From: Slackia faecicanis
Lineage (GTDB): Bacteria > Actinomycetota > Coriobacteriia > Coriobacteriales > Eggerthellaceae
Direction of reading: 5' to 3'
Length of the DNA: 64,000 nucleotides
Assembly (NCBI RefSeq): GCF_003725295.1
Contig: NZ_QICB01000002.1
Span: 248,001 to 312,000, forward strand
Shown here: positions 52,474 through 57,874 of the stretch, in pieces
Numbering within the stretch: the first letter of the stretch is position 1
How the letters are laid out: each line of letters opens with the position of its first letter
The notes under the pieces: model-generated
Told to the model about the DNA's origin: nothing
Database searches by the model: none
The model's input: the letters and a program-made list of their open reading frames with translations, nothing else
Position numbers and translations under genes: made by a program

Positions 52474-53442
52474 CTATGAATGCATGCGGAAGTCGCGCAT
52501 GAGGTCTTGGCGGTTTGCCTGACCCGTTTTGTGCAAGATGTTGTGCACATGCACCTTGACGGTGGAAAGAGCGAGACTCATCTCGCTGGCAATGCACTGA
52601 TTATCCTTGCCCAGCAAAACCTCCCTGAGCACCTCTTCTTCTCTCGCCGAAAGCCCATAACGGTCGCAATACGAGGGCAAGCCGTTGGCTATGAAAGCAA
52701 CCGTCTTATCACAGTTTTCAGCAGGCGGCGTTTTGAAATGCAGGGCGAACAAACGCCAGCATCCGACGCAAACGAACGCAGCGCACCAAATCATGAGTGC
52801 ATTCTCGGCGAAATTTCGTTCAGGGAAAAACGGAACCGACCCCGATGCCACCAGCTGCGGATCGATGACGAACATGAATACCGCATTCTCGGCCACGACG
52901 CATATCACGAGAACCCACAATCCGGCATAGAAATGACGGTAGCGCCACAGGCGCTCGCGCAAGACGCCATCGGTCGAGCCGATGTAGCACACGGCCACAT
53001 ACAACAGCATCCAGATCATCACGAGCGAACGCATGCCGTAGAACAGGAACAGCCCCAACGGACCGCCGTCGACCAAAAAATACAGCGCGACGCTTCCGGC
53101 AGCGAACACCGCGGCGGGAGCGACCATGAACGCTTTGTTCCTCACTTCGAAGAAGTCGCATAGACACAACCAAAACGAAGCGATCAAGCCCGTGCCCGTG
53201 ACGACGGAAGGCAGCTGCGAGCCGACGAAATAGATAGAATCGAGCGGCGCCGATCCGCCGCGCAGCAGAAAATCATCCTGAAAAACCAGCGCCACGTCGA
53301 GAAAGTACGAAAGGAATCCGGCGCAGGCGAGAATGAGGACGCGCCGATGGGAAACGAGATAACCGGAGAGGCAGAACGCCGCCGCGACAATGCTCACCAG
53401 CAAGATGAACAGCGTGTAGTAGAACATAGCTATGACCGTCAT
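52474..53442 (-). CDS. LuxR-family regulator with an N-terminal multi-helix membrane domain
   Basis: A 322-residue membrane-bound transcription factor. Residues 1-240 hold about seven membrane helices with no known sensor domain. The C-terminal LuxR/GerE HTH is at about 258-315: LSAREEEVLREVLLGKDNQC then STVKVHVHNILHKTGQANRQ. This architecture is abundant in Eggerthella and relatives, where such genes often neighbour transporters or respiratory enzymes and sense their substrates. ATG 53442 follows AGGGGC. It is divergent from the YfcC gene, its most likely target. Confidence 0.88.
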   Translation of the reverse strand: MTVIAMFYYTLFILLVSIVAAAFCLSGYLVSHRRVLILACAGFLSYFLDVALVFQDDFLLRGGSAPLDSIYFVGSQLPSVVTGTGLIASFWLCLCDFFEVRNKAFMVAPAAVFAAGSVALYFLVDGGPLGLFLFYGMRSLVMIWMLLYVAVCYIGSTDGVLRERLWRYRHFYAGLWVLVICVVAENAVFMFVIDPQLVASGSVPFFPERNFAENALMIWCAAFVCVGCWRLFALHFKTPPAENCDKTVAFIANGLPSYCDRYGLSAREEEVLREVLLGKDNQCIASEMSLALSTVKVHVHNILHKTGQANRQDLMRDFRMHS

Positions 53443-53583
53443 ACAGATAAGCCCCTACTTCGCGAATAATCGGATATGGCCGACAATGGCGCCCCAACGG
53501 TGACGAAACCGCACATAAATAACGCGTTTAGTATTCTACACCCAAATTAAACCCTTGCCCAACCCAGCTTAAATATCGCCGAG

Positions 53584-53873
53584 AATACGTTTCGGGCGTA
53601 TATTCATCCCATAGAAGCGACTATCCGTGAATCAACCGAATCTGAACCGAACCTATCTTCAAGTATTCGACTTCACGCAAAGCCGCAGACCGCATCCACC
53701 CCTATCCGATGCGGTCTGCGCCCCTTTTCCATATTCCTCCGAAGCGAACGGGGCATGTCTGGAGGAATATTCCATGTCTAGCGAGGACCGCATGGGAAGA
53801 GCGGCCTTTCGATAGAAGAAGAGAGAGGCCGAAACGTTTCGACGATTCGGCACGACAACTGCAAGGAGGCACA
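53584..53873 (+). promoter_or_regulatory. Promoter, candidate operator and structured leader of the YfcC gene
   Basis: AATACG (53584-53589) and CGTATATT (53597-53604) form an inverted repeat over a possible TATATT -10 (53599-53604). The leader then holds: hairpin 1, a 13-bp perfect stem (53684-53696 with 53708-53720) followed by CCCCTTTT, terminator-like; hairpin 2, a 10-bp stem (53731-53740 with 53761-53770) that buries a GGAGG; a 13-codon frame starting at that site (53774-53815); and a CGAAACGTTTCG palindrome before the transporter's own AAGGAGG. With no plus-strand gene upstream, hairpin 1 suggests attenuation or a short RNA. The region 53443-53583 has no gene. Confidence 0.55.
53774..53815 (+). 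CDS. Possible 13-residue leader peptide (MSSEDRMGRAAFR)
   Basis: The frame begins at an ATG eight bases after GGAGG (53761-53765) and ends TAG. It continues in frame with a longer GTG-started frame from 53627 that lacks a good ribosome site. The strong site, partly buried in hairpin 2, makes a regulatory upstream peptide plausible, but there is no conservation evidence. It could equally be chance. Confidence 0.3.
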   Translation: MSSEDRMGRAAFR

Positions 53874-55457
53874 ATGTCAGCAGAAGCCACGGCCGCCAAG
53901 CCGGCCGCGACGGTGGACGCACCGCCGAAGAAAAAGAAGAAATTCAGCGTTCCTACAGCGTTCACGATTTTGTTCGTGATCACCATCTTGGCCGTTATCG
54001 CTACGTGGTTCATCCCCGCAGGCGCCTACTCCAAGCTGGCCTACCTGCCCGATAGCTCCGAATTCCAGATCACGGAGCCCAGCGGCGAAGTCCGCACCAT
54101 TCCCGCAACCGAAGAGGCCTTCCGCGCCGACCCCGAGCTGCAGGACATGAAGGTCGACGTCGAGAAGTTCCTCGACGGCTCCATCACCAAGCCTATCTCT
54201 GTCCCTGGCACCTACGAGGAGCTGCCTCAGCAGCCTAAGGGCCTGTTCGACGTAACGGCCGCCATGGTCAACGGCACCATCAACGGCGTCGACATCATGG
54301 TCTTCATCCTCGTCCTGGGCGGCCTGATCGGCGTCGTCAATGCATCGGGCGCATTCGAATCGGGCCTGGTGGCCTTGACGAAGAAAACCAAGGGTCGCGA
54401 GTTCCTCTTGGTGTTCCTCGTCAGCGTCTTGATGGTTCTGGGCGGCACGACCTGCGGCCTCGAAGAGGAAGCGGTCGCATTCTACCCGATTCTCGTGCCT
54501 ATATTCCTTGCTTTGGGATATGACTCCATCGTCTGCGTCGGCGCTATCTTCCTCGCCGGCTCCATGGGCACCACGTTCTCCACGATCAACCCGTTCTCCG
54601 TCGTTATCGCGTCCAACGCCGCAGGCGTCGCCTGGACCGAGGGTATCGAATGGCGCGTCATCGGCTGCGTTGTCGGCGCCATCGTGGTCGTGAGCTACCT
54701 GTACTGGTACTGCAAGAAGATCAAGAAGAACCCCGAGGCCTCTTATACGTACGAGGATCGCGAGCACTTCGCCAAGCTCTTCAGCGTCCATGACTCCAAC
54801 TCTTCCACCATTCCCGCTTTCGACTGGCGTCGCAAGCTCATCCTGGTGCTGTTCGTGGCCGCCTTCGTCATCATGATCTACGGCGTCGTGAACCTGCACT
54901 GGTGGTTCCCGCAGATGGCTGCTTCCTTCCTGTTCATTGCGATTATCTGCATCTTCCTCACCGGCCTTGACGAGAAGACCGTCGTCGATGCCTTCATCAA
55001 CGGCGCTTCGAGCCTCGTCGGCGTTTCCCTGATCATCGGTCTGGCCCGCGGCGTCAACCTGATCATGGAAGAGGGCTTCATCTCCGACACCCTGCTCTAC
55101 TGGGCTTCCAACGCCGTCGCCGGCATGGAGGGCGCGGTCTTCATCATCATGATGATGGTCATCTTCTTCCTGCTCGGCTTCATCGTGCCGTCCTCTTCGG
55201 GCCTGGCCGTTCTGGCAATGCCCATCCTTGCGCCCCTCGCCGACACCGTCGGCATCGACCGCTCCATCATCGTCTCCGCGTACAACTGGGGCCAGTACGC
55301 AATGCTCTACCTGGCACCGACGGGTCTGGTCATGGCAACATTGACCATGTTGGACATGAAGTACACGCATTGGTTGAAGTTCGTTCTCCCGATGGTCGGC
55401 TTCCTGTTCGTGTTCGGCGGCGCACTGCTTGTGGCACAGGTCATGGTAGGCGCATAG
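53874..55457 (+). CDS. YfcC-family transporter (DcuC/ArgE-like basic amino acid or dicarboxylate carrier)
   Basis: A 527-residue membrane protein with about twelve helices. It opens with a charged, Ala/Lys-rich cytosolic segment (KKKKKFS at about 20-26), then FTILFVITILAVIATWFIPAGAYSKL, the start pattern of YfcC proteins. A periplasmic insert (about 57-115) precedes the transporter core; GGTTCGLEEEAVAFYPILVP and MGTTFSTINPFSVVIASNAAG are conserved in the group, as is FIVPSSSGLAVLAMPI. Members are annotated as C4-dicarboxylate or basic amino-acid carriers; the substrate is uncertain. AAGGAGG precedes ATG 53874. It is divergent from the LuxR-type gene. Confidence 0.85.
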   Translation: MSAEATAAKPAATVDAPPKKKKKFSVPTAFTILFVITILAVIATWFIPAGAYSKLAYLPDSSEFQITEPSGEVRTIPATEEAFRADPELQDMKVDVEKFLDGSITKPISVPGTYEELPQQPKGLFDVTAAMVNGTINGVDIMVFILVLGGLIGVVNASGAFESGLVALTKKTKGREFLLVFLVSVLMVLGGTTCGLEEEAVAFYPILVPIFLALGYDSIVCVGAIFLAGSMGTTFSTINPFSVVIASNAAGVAWTEGIEWRVIGCVVGAIVVVSYLYWYCKKIKKNPEASYTYEDREHFAKLFSVHDSNSSTIPAFDWRRKLILVLFVAAFVIMIYGVVNLHWWFPQMAASFLFIAIICIFLTGLDEKTVVDAFINGASSLVGVSLIIGLARGVNLIMEEGFISDTLLYWASNAVAGMEGAVFIIMMMVIFFLLGFIVPSSSGLAVLAMPILAPLADTVGIDRSIIVSAYNWGQYAMLYLAPTGLVMATLTMLDMKYTHWLKFVLPMVGFLFVFGGALLVAQVMVGA

Positions 55458-55501: not shown

Positions 55502-55536
55502 GAAAAGGGCCGCCCCCTCCTTGGACGGCCCTTTTC
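55502..55536 (+). terminator. Terminator of the YfcC gene
   Basis: An 11-bp stem (GAAAAGGGCCG with CGGCCCTTTTC) has a 13-base loop and an arm ending TTTTC. Confidence 0.85.
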
Positions 55537-55564: not shown

Positions 55565-55606
55565 CGTAAAAGGAAGGTCGCCCTTATAGGCGGCCTTCCT
55601 TTTACG
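55565..55606. terminator. Second long hairpin, 18-bp stem
   Basis: 55565-55582 pairs with 55589-55606, 18 bp with one G-T, around a six-base loop. It lies 28 bases after the first terminator. No T tract follows the stem; the 3' arm itself contains CCTTTT. Confidence 0.7.
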
Positions 55607-55741: not shown

Positions 55742-55776
55742 CAAAGGACGGCCGCCTCGAGGGCGGCCGTCCTTTG
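55742..55776. terminator. Terminator of the SLH-protein gene, third hairpin of the cluster
   Basis: A 15-bp perfect stem (55742-55756 with 55762-55776) with a five-base loop lies 47 bases beyond the SLH gene stop. Bases 55607-55741 between hairpins two and three contain no evident gene. Confidence 0.75.
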
Positions 55777-55823: not shown

Positions 55824-57512
55824 CTACCACTTGGAGGCGTCGACGGACACTTTACAGAACATAGCGCGGGTCGCAGTGCCCTGAGGATCGAGCGACACGC
55901 TGCCGTCCGGATTCACGATGCCGCCCATGACGCCCTCGTTGGCGAGCCACTTGAAATACGGAACCGCCCACGAAGACAGCTTCTCGATATCGTGCGTATT
56001 TGAAGCGCCGTTAGGCCAGTTCAGACCCGATGCATCGACATGCGCGCCGCGGAAGCGCTCCATATACGACGCGACCACCTTGGCCATCTCCTCGCGCGTG
56101 ATAGTATCGTCGGGGCGCACCGTGGACGTGCCGCCGTTGTCGCCCGTGAAGATCTTGTTCTTATAGGCCCAGTTCATGGCCTCCGTGTACCATTCCCCGC
56201 CAAGGACATCGTCCCACGGGGTCTGATTGCTCGGACGCGACCCAGTGTCGGCGCCTTGGGCGCGGCAAAACACCATGGCAACCTGGGCGCGCGTCACAGG
56301 TTCTTCGGGCCTGAAATCGCCATCGGGAAAGCCCTGCATCAAACCGAGGCGCTTCGCCTCTGCGATATAAGGCGTATACCATGCGTCGGAACCGGAGTTA
56401 TCGGGACCGGGCTGAGGCTGGGGGTCCGGCTGCGGCTCGGGCTCAGGTTCGGGCTTGGGCTCGTGCGTATCGCCCGTGCGGTCGATAATGGCCAGGCACT
56501 GAGCCTTCTCGCGCTTGTAGCGATTCTGCCATCCTTTGTGGTACTGCGGCTGCCCCTTGTAGAACACGGCCACGTTATCGACCACGTAGTCGCACAGCAC
56601 GCTGACGAATTCCCTATCCGACATGTCGTCGCGCAGCCCTGCGCCGGGCCACACGTATTTCTCGCTGAGATAATGATAAATGCCGTCCCAATCGTAGCCG
56701 TCGGAAATGCCGCCGACGAACTTGCGCCACCCCGTATTGCCGAACAGGTTGGACATGCCCCAGCACAAGCCCTTCACCGCATCGTTGCGGTCGGAGATAT
56801 CGATGCCGCGGCTTGCCAGATAACGCTCAGCAGGCATGTAATAGCTTTCGTATGCCCAGCCGTCCTGCAGGCGCGCGAACTCGCTGTCGGCCACGGCGAC
56901 GCCCTTGCCGTCGGCGTTCGCGGCGGCAACCCAGGCTTCGTTGAGCGCCTTGCCGAGTTCGGTGAACTCTTCGACGCCTTCCTCGTTTTTCTGACGGATG
57001 GCATTGGCGGCCTTGAATTCGGCGGCGGGAATGGCGAGGAACTGCTTGAACATCGCGTACTTTTTCGGATTGTAGTTGTAGCACGCAATCAGGAAGTTCT
57101 GCAGGCCGTAGCGGTGGTCGAACTGGTAGAAGCCGAGGGCGTGATAGCCGTCGCCCCAGCTGAACGTGCGGTCGTACGTGCCGCCCTCGAACGCGCCGAA
57201 ATAGAGCATGTCCTTCGAGATCTTCACGGGATACACGCTTGCGGCGCGTGCGGAATCGGACAGAAGCGCGACCTCGTCGTCTTCGGACTCGCTATAGAAA
57301 TCGGCCTTGTCATAGCCCCCGACGGGAATCCAGTCCGAAGCTGCGCTTTCGACGGACGGCGCCTCGAACGATGCTGCGGCATCTGCTGCAGAAACCCCAT
57401 AATCGAGCGACTCCTGAGCGGCCTGATCATCGGCAAGGGCCACCACAGGCGTCATGGTGAACGCCAAAGCGACCGACATGCCCGTCGCGATGACCTTGTT
57501 CCTAGTTTTCAT
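55824..57512 (-). CDS. Secreted SLH-domain surface protein with an unrecognised N-terminal domain
   Basis: A 562-residue cell-surface protein. A signal peptide (MKTRNKVIATGMSVALAFT, cleaving near VALA-DD at about 28) leads to an acidic linker. The domain at about 95-335 has an ordered, aromatic-rich pattern (FSWGDGYHALGFYQFDHRYG, KLQNFLIACYNYNP, GLCWGMSNLFGNTGWRKF) reminiscent of lysozyme-like hydrolases with Glu/Asp near aromatic grooves, but I cannot name it. A PEPEPEPQPDPQPQPG spacer follows, then two or three SLH modules (about 375-562: AWYTPYIAEAKRLGL, DGDFRPEEPVTRAQVA, TRAMFCK) that bind wall polysaccharide. GGAGATATGC precedes ATG 57512. Confidence 0.8.
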   Translation of the reverse strand: MKTRNKVIATGMSVALAFTMTPVVALADDQAAQESLDYGVSAADAAASFEAPSVESAASDWIPVGGYDKADFYSESEDDEVALLSDSARAASVYPVKISKDMLYFGAFEGGTYDRTFSWGDGYHALGFYQFDHRYGLQNFLIACYNYNPKKYAMFKQFLAIPAAEFKAANAIRQKNEEGVEEFTELGKALNEAWVAAANADGKGVAVADSEFARLQDGWAYESYYMPAERYLASRGIDISDRNDAVKGLCWGMSNLFGNTGWRKFVGGISDGYDWDGIYHYLSEKYVWPGAGLRDDMSDREFVSVLCDYVVDNVAVFYKGQPQYHKGWQNRYKREKAQCLAIIDRTGDTHEPKPEPEPEPQPDPQPQPGPDNSGSDAWYTPYIAEAKRLGLMQGFPDGDFRPEEPVTRAQVAMVFCRAQGADTGSRPSNQTPWDDVLGGEWYTEAMNWAYKNKIFTGDNGGTSTVRPDDTITREEMAKVVASYMERFRGAHVDASGLNWPNGASNTHDIEKLSSWAVPYFKWLANEGVMGGIVNPDGSVSLDPQGTATRAMFCKVSVDASKW

Positions 57513-57822
57513 GCATATCTCCTGAGCGTGTTCGTTCTCGTATGCGCGGACGGCGCGCACTCGAAGCCGTTCGGGCTGCCGAGCTGCGGCTGCACACCGC
57601 CGAGGCGGTGCAGGGAGCGCACTACGGCGCGTGATGTCCAACCGGTAAAACATACCACGACGGCATTGAGAATCGGCTTTCGAGAAGACGATTTTGCCCT
57701 CGCATCGAAAACACGCCATATTCCGAACAAGCGAGACGGCGTCTCGCAGACGGCTGCGCAGGTCGCGCGCTCCTAGAAGCGCCGCATCCAAACCGCTCAC
57801 GACGTAGGCGCCTTCGACGCAT

Positions 57823-57853
57823 AGAAAAAGGCGGCCCCTTGTGGGACCGCCTT
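57823..57853 (-). terminator. Terminator of the ATP synthase operon
   Basis: AAGGCGGTCCC pairs with its complement (one mismatch) around ACA; TTTTTC follows on the minus strand. The rest of 57513-57822 is probably the SLH gene's promoter region; no gene is seen. Confidence 0.88.
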
Positions 57854-57874
57854 CATGAAACACGAGCGCGATGC

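Follow-up and report, generated by a model that had tools for sequence, protein, structure and literature searches.

The locus considered here raises the question whether the long intergenic stretch in front of the transporter gene yfcC, from which a gene for a membrane LuxR regulator diverges, is a regulatory RNA, and if so of which type. The 64,000-nucleotide stretch analysed, in the following called the window, comes from a 2.0-Mb Slackia genome, with S. piriformis as closest named species. A preliminary description had listed a 13-bp hairpin, a second hairpin, a 13-codon frame and a palindrome in front of yfcC, all of which are present in the sequence. In about 16 Eggerthellaceae we found a yfcC orthologue accompanied by a LuxR gene. 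Six Slackia species form a close clade in which YfcC is 95–99% identical and LuxR 73–83%. Our comparison covers the leaders of these six gut bacteria only, namely L001 (the window itself), L002, L003, L004 (S. piriformis), L005 and L006. Between the divergent LuxR gene and yfcC this clade has three conserved hairpins, named H1, H2 and H3 (Table 1).

Table 1: Features around the yfcC leader, in window positions.
Feature	Position	Strand	Description
Divergent LuxR regulator	52474..53442	-	322 aa; N-terminal membrane part, C-terminal LuxR-type HTH
Probable LuxR operator	53537-53554	+	direct repeat TACACCC-N4-TAAACCC, period 11; putative function
Weaker third repeat unit	53559-53565		CCAACCC
Probable -10 region of the yfcC promoter	53569-53577	+	TTAAATATC; TTA(A/G)ATAT in all six species, 14 nt after the repeats
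H1	53684-53720	+	13 bp, loop CACCCCTATCC, then CCCCTTTT; in 5/6 species
Species-specific hairpin over GGAGG	53731-53770	+	second hairpin of the preliminary description; not conserved
13-codon ATG frame	53774-53815		
H2	53777-53816	+	13 pairs, two bulges; conserved loop (U/C)AUGGGAAGA(G); 6/6 species
Purine-rich single-stranded linker	53817-53827	+	AGAAGAGAGAG; conserved in alignments A1 and A5
H3	53828-53851	+	up to 8 pairs; 6/6 species; ends 11 nt before the Shine-Dalgarno sequence
Palindrome	53830-53841		CGAAACGTTTCG
Shine-Dalgarno sequence of yfcC	53863-53869	+	AAGGAGG; invariant in six species
yfcC	53874..55457	+	DcuC/YfcC-family transporter, 527 aa

The strongest hairpin of the leader is H1, which occurs once in its own genome. 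Its stem consists of 13 perfect pairs (53684–53696 with 53708–53720) around a loop of 11 nt and folds with −24.5 kcal/mol compared to −7.5 kcal/mol for shuffled sequences (z −8.4), and no 13-bp Watson–Crick stem arose in 400 shuffles of the leader. Among the species the arms vary in sequence while their pairing is kept, with both-side changes at 7 of the 13 pairs and 96.8% of cells paired; neither value, the percentage or the covariation score, was reached by any of 500 shuffles, and pairing falls to 27–42% when the partner is slid by 1–3 bases. At least nine independent double substitutions can be placed on the yfcC tree, and even the two closest species, L001 and L002, with 95% identity between their yfcC genes, differ by two complete compensations. 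When L006 was left out of the covariance model of H1, the model still recovered this leader with an E-value of 3e-6 in 184 kb. The leader of S. piriformis lacks H1, is about 70 nt shorter and retains H2 and H3, representing a natural H1 deletion. As its sister on the tree, L005, does have H1, the hairpin was likely lost in S. piriformis.

The preliminary description had considered H1 as part of an attenuator. Hairpin and tail would then end transcription early, leaving a short RNA of about 120–150 nt, and a signal would permit read-through. Such a role would suit the leader's strongest hairpin, as it has no gene before it whose transcription it could end, and all five species that carry H1 do have CCCCTT behind it. 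However, the four Cs stand between the stem and the Ts, and the tails (CCCCTTTT, CCCCTTTA, CCCCTTTT, GCCCCTTCG and CCCCTTTCG, that of L006 counted from a 10-bp stem) differ in what they preserve: the T-run is eroded and only 2–3 long in L005 and L006. As it is the CCCC and not the T-run that has been retained behind H1, what selection preserves is not an intrinsic terminator. Furthermore, the H1 loop measures 11–16 nt across the species, S. piriformis manages without H1, a simple terminator scan calls no terminator on the plus strand, the other terminator-like long hairpins of the window carry their Ts directly at the stem, and a conserved antiterminator was not found across the relatives. The leader may yield a short RNA of about 120–150 nt. 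We do not favour attenuation and regard it as unlikely.

The preliminary description had missed two further hairpins that are conserved, H2 and H3, both of which lie where its frame and palindrome are and overlap with these. After the operator, the H2 block and the Shine-Dalgarno sequence are the best conserved blocks of the region, and the GGGAAGA sequence of the H2 loop and the linker sequence are kept across the clade. H2 shows both-side changes at three pairs in addition to G-U variants; on its own it does not outdo the shuffles in the six species and is conserved mainly in sequence. In H3 both sides have changed at five of the eight pairs, with at least seven independent double substitutions on the yfcC tree. 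Taken together, H2 and H3 have 91.3% of cells paired and both-side changes at 8 of 21 pairs, which was not reached in any of 500 shuffles, and a model of both built without L004 and L005 recovers them at the right site in these two leaders (E-values 3.5e-9 and 3.6e-12).

These hairpins also bear on the idea that the inverted repeats act as DNA, either as a protein site or as a cruciform. The changes in H1 are almost all of the Watson–Crick type and its loop sequence ACCCC resembles the operator unit, as would fit a DNA-level inverted repeat, but H2 and H3 contain G-U variants and bulges, the block is positioned relative to the Shine-Dalgarno sequence and the arms are free to change their sequence, unlike those of a protein site. 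The G-U variants in H2 point to RNA and not to DNA, and we give a DNA-level function hardly any credence.

Part of the pair alignments was adjusted manually or dictated by the model, which biases them toward pairing. As guards against this bias we used the held-out models described above and unprompted folding: RNAalifold applied to plain MAFFT alignments, with no structure given, yields H1 as well as H2 and H3. Few if any of the 500 shuffles and none of the slid controls reach the pair counts of H1 or of the H2/H3 block, and the whole leader folds better than its shuffles (z −2.7). Judged from these comparisons, the leader is under selection for RNA structure, and its three hairpins keep their position ahead of the ribosome site. 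The proposal of a structured leader with a conserved H1 thus withstood the search for covariation and conserved hairpins, with compensatory changes found at several pairs and arising independently on the tree. The hairpins are kept by matched mutations on both arms, and the leader is therefore very probably a genuine control region of an uncatalogued type.

Other elements of the preliminary description are particular to the window's own species. The second hairpin (53731–53740 with 53761–53770, 10 perfect pairs, ordinary fold energy with z −0.8) does cover a GGAGG as claimed, but it is not conserved, as an unrelated, different hairpin lies between H1 and H2 in each relative. The 12-bp palindrome is not conserved either, being the apical part of H3 in its own species only. 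Similarly, the 13-codon frame, proposed to encode a leader peptide, has no counterpart in the relatives owing to indels and missing start codons, and no conserved short frame with a ribosome site was found in the six leaders. A 7-codon frame within H2 with two arginine codons would be another basis for leader-peptide control, readable as MGRAAFR, MGRATFR, MGRTAFP and MGRAAFR in four species, although it has no start in L002, no stop in L004 and no clear ribosome site, and its differences are mostly non-synonymous. Control by either peptide appears extremely unlikely to us.

In 61 genomes the models of H1 and of H2 with H3 gave strong matches at the yfcC locus only, one per genome and exclusively in the six-species clade, and wider pattern and model searches did not find the H2 block at any other place than the yfcC locus. 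Immediately outside the clade, LuxR gene, repeats and yfcC are retained but the leaders are short or unrelated, and we consider the leader element lineage-specific for these two reasons. As the sister species S. isoflavoniconvertens, S. equolifaciens and Senegalimassilia possess LuxR, repeats and yfcC without these hairpins, regulation does not depend on the leader.

In the predicted folds the Shine-Dalgarno sequence is unpaired with probabilities of 0.77, 0.79, 0.56, 0.33, 0.39 and 0.59 in the six species. None of the six leaders is predicted to sequester its ribosome site, and a simple sequestering switch is unsupported since the site is partly to mostly open. Several alternative pairings were considered as well. 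Pairing of the 3' arm of H2 with the 5' arm of H3 is no better than in shuffles (210 of 2000), pairing between the loops of H1 and H2 was dropped as only 3–4 pairs could be seen by eye, and pairing of the CCCCUU tail with the Shine-Dalgarno sequence of yfcC (one bulge) is possible on paper and absent from the predicted folds. The 3' arm of H1 and the 5' arm of H2 are 82% complementary in the window's species, without consistent support across the relatives.

The partly to mostly open ribosome site would also agree with a passive structured 5' UTR, in which the hairpins have no sensing function and would only shield the mRNA of a highly expressed transporter or act as spacers in it. Sister species managing without the hairpins and the different hairpin between H1 and H2 in every species point in the same direction. 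On the other hand, mere protection would not need the GGGAAGA loop of H2 and the linker to be kept in sequence, and we find a passive role rather unlikely, if far from absurd.

The preliminary description had recognized no known riboswitch class, and in agreement with this no Rfam cis-regulatory family matched the window or its relatives at gathering score, the best scores being far below it. Relaxed thresholds gave chance matches only (Thr_leader, ryfA). Because of the GGA in the H2 loop a CsrA-controlled leader was considered and rejected, as PF02599 is absent from 12 Slackia genomes (controls positive). A literature search returned nothing relevant on structured or leader RNA in Slackia. 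Thus, while a structured 5' leader is a known kind of element, the yfcC leader family is new as far as Rfam and our searches show.

Upstream of the leader, the divergent regulator has about 7–8 hydrophobic segments by hydropathy and a GerE domain (PF00196, E 2e-13) at residues 264–316, and this LuxR is the divergent partner of yfcC at the orthologous loci. Nine Slackia genomes carry TANACCCN4TANACCC in the gap between LuxR and yfcC; eight of them have no further copy and S. equolifaciens has one more elsewhere, compared to about zero for a reversed-pattern control. The direct repeats of the window, which like the probable −10 region are a conserved non-coding block, are likely the LuxR operator, and transcription of yfcC would start near 53581–53584, so that the leader would measure about 290 nt. 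In S. exigua (L139 1501–1518) the repeat also precedes a gene of the arginine deiminase/DDAH family, in a member of another family (L149 1501–1518) it separates LuxR from a flavoprotein gene, and it is present in L137 and L150 as well. Membrane LuxR regulators beside inducible Eggerthellaceae genes, with a transmembrane N-terminus and a LuxR HTH, are described by Dong et al. (2022, PMC9734109). The regulator found here shares this architecture and the position next to its presumed target, but it is a protein of fewer hydrophobic segments than the 10–12 TM given there and its presumed target is a transporter. A text search of the same paper gave no operator motif or binding site; the candidate is proposed here.

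DcuC (PF03606) covers the whole YfcC protein (E 3e-148, 494 bits), and the YfcC equivalog (NCBIfam PRK11588) scores 267 bits, below its cut-off of 500. In S. exigua the gene order is LuxR, ornithine carbamoyltransferase (OTC), carbamate kinase, YfcC (L109 413–5518) and in Gordonibacter LuxR, carbamate kinase, YfcC (L040 1256–5533), which suggests an antiporter of the arginine/citrulline pathway; in S. equolifaciens and two other genomes carbamate kinase lies just downstream of yfcC. As its orthologues adjoin OTC and/or carbamate kinase genes, YfcC is probably an ArcD-like basic amino acid antiporter. In the window's own genome a second YfcC paralogue (about 33% identity) adjoins the only carbamate kinase (G000:C2:431808–434317), and since this is not the window copy, the yfcC studied here stands apart from the pathway genes. 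Downstream of yfcC three long hairpins (55502–55536, 55565–55606 and 55742–55776), followed by a convergent gene at 55824–57863, probably form a two-way terminator region.

A further reading is a riboswitch of a novel class whose ligand might be arginine, ornithine or citrulline. It would be consistent with the H2/H3 block next to the ribosome site and its conserved loop and linker, with the lack of an Rfam match and with the probable arginine-pathway antiporter encoded behind the leader. RNA control of YfcC transporters also has a precedent, albeit by an unrelated RNA, as yfcC of C. difficile is preceded by a lysine riboswitch (PMC11477304). Nevertheless, the block is known from a single locus in six species of one genus and no switching structure has covariation support, making such a riboswitch very unlikely indeed. 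Quite unlikely as well is the idea of a new riboswitch-like class of Slackia in which H2, linker and H3 would bind either a dedicated protein or a metabolite of the arginine pathway and thereby gate a LuxR-controlled, ArcD-like antiporter.

In summary, the reading we prefer, with the case for it evenly balanced, is that the yfcC leader is a cis-acting structured leader with a regulatory effect after initiation, behind a LuxR-controlled promoter. Transcription from a promoter whose direct repeats serve the divergent membrane LuxR as operator would give yfcC a 5' leader of about 290 nt, in which, in the S. piriformis clade, H1, a variable hairpin, H2 with its GGGAAGA loop, the purine linker, H3 and an exposed AAGGAGG would follow each other. 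The H2–linker–H3 block beside the ribosome site would set the translation and/or stability of the message, with the conserved loop and linker possibly binding a protein or ligand, and H1 would serve as an upstream folding, pausing or 5'-protecting unit and not as an intrinsic terminator. We infer leader transcription, its start site, LuxR binding and the RNA-level control with its direction. For a gut lineage in which we found no described leader RNA, the locus offers a compact candidate that Rfam does not contain, coupled to a proposed operator for a group of regulators that is poorly understood, the membrane LuxR proteins of Eggerthellaceae. If the riboswitch-like reading were true, one gene would combine membrane-sensed transcription with RNA-sensed output.

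With the leaders and riboswitches of amino-acid transporters, such as that of C. difficile, the Slackia leader shares conserved hairpins in the 5' UTR of a YfcC gene, but it matches neither the lysine riboswitch nor another Rfam family and consists of three simple hairpins in six species. With attenuators based on intrinsic terminators it has in common a long leader and a strong GC hairpin followed by CCCCTTTT, but it differs from them by a C-run in place of an immediate U-run, by a U-run that is not conserved, and in that no conserved antiterminator was found among the relatives.
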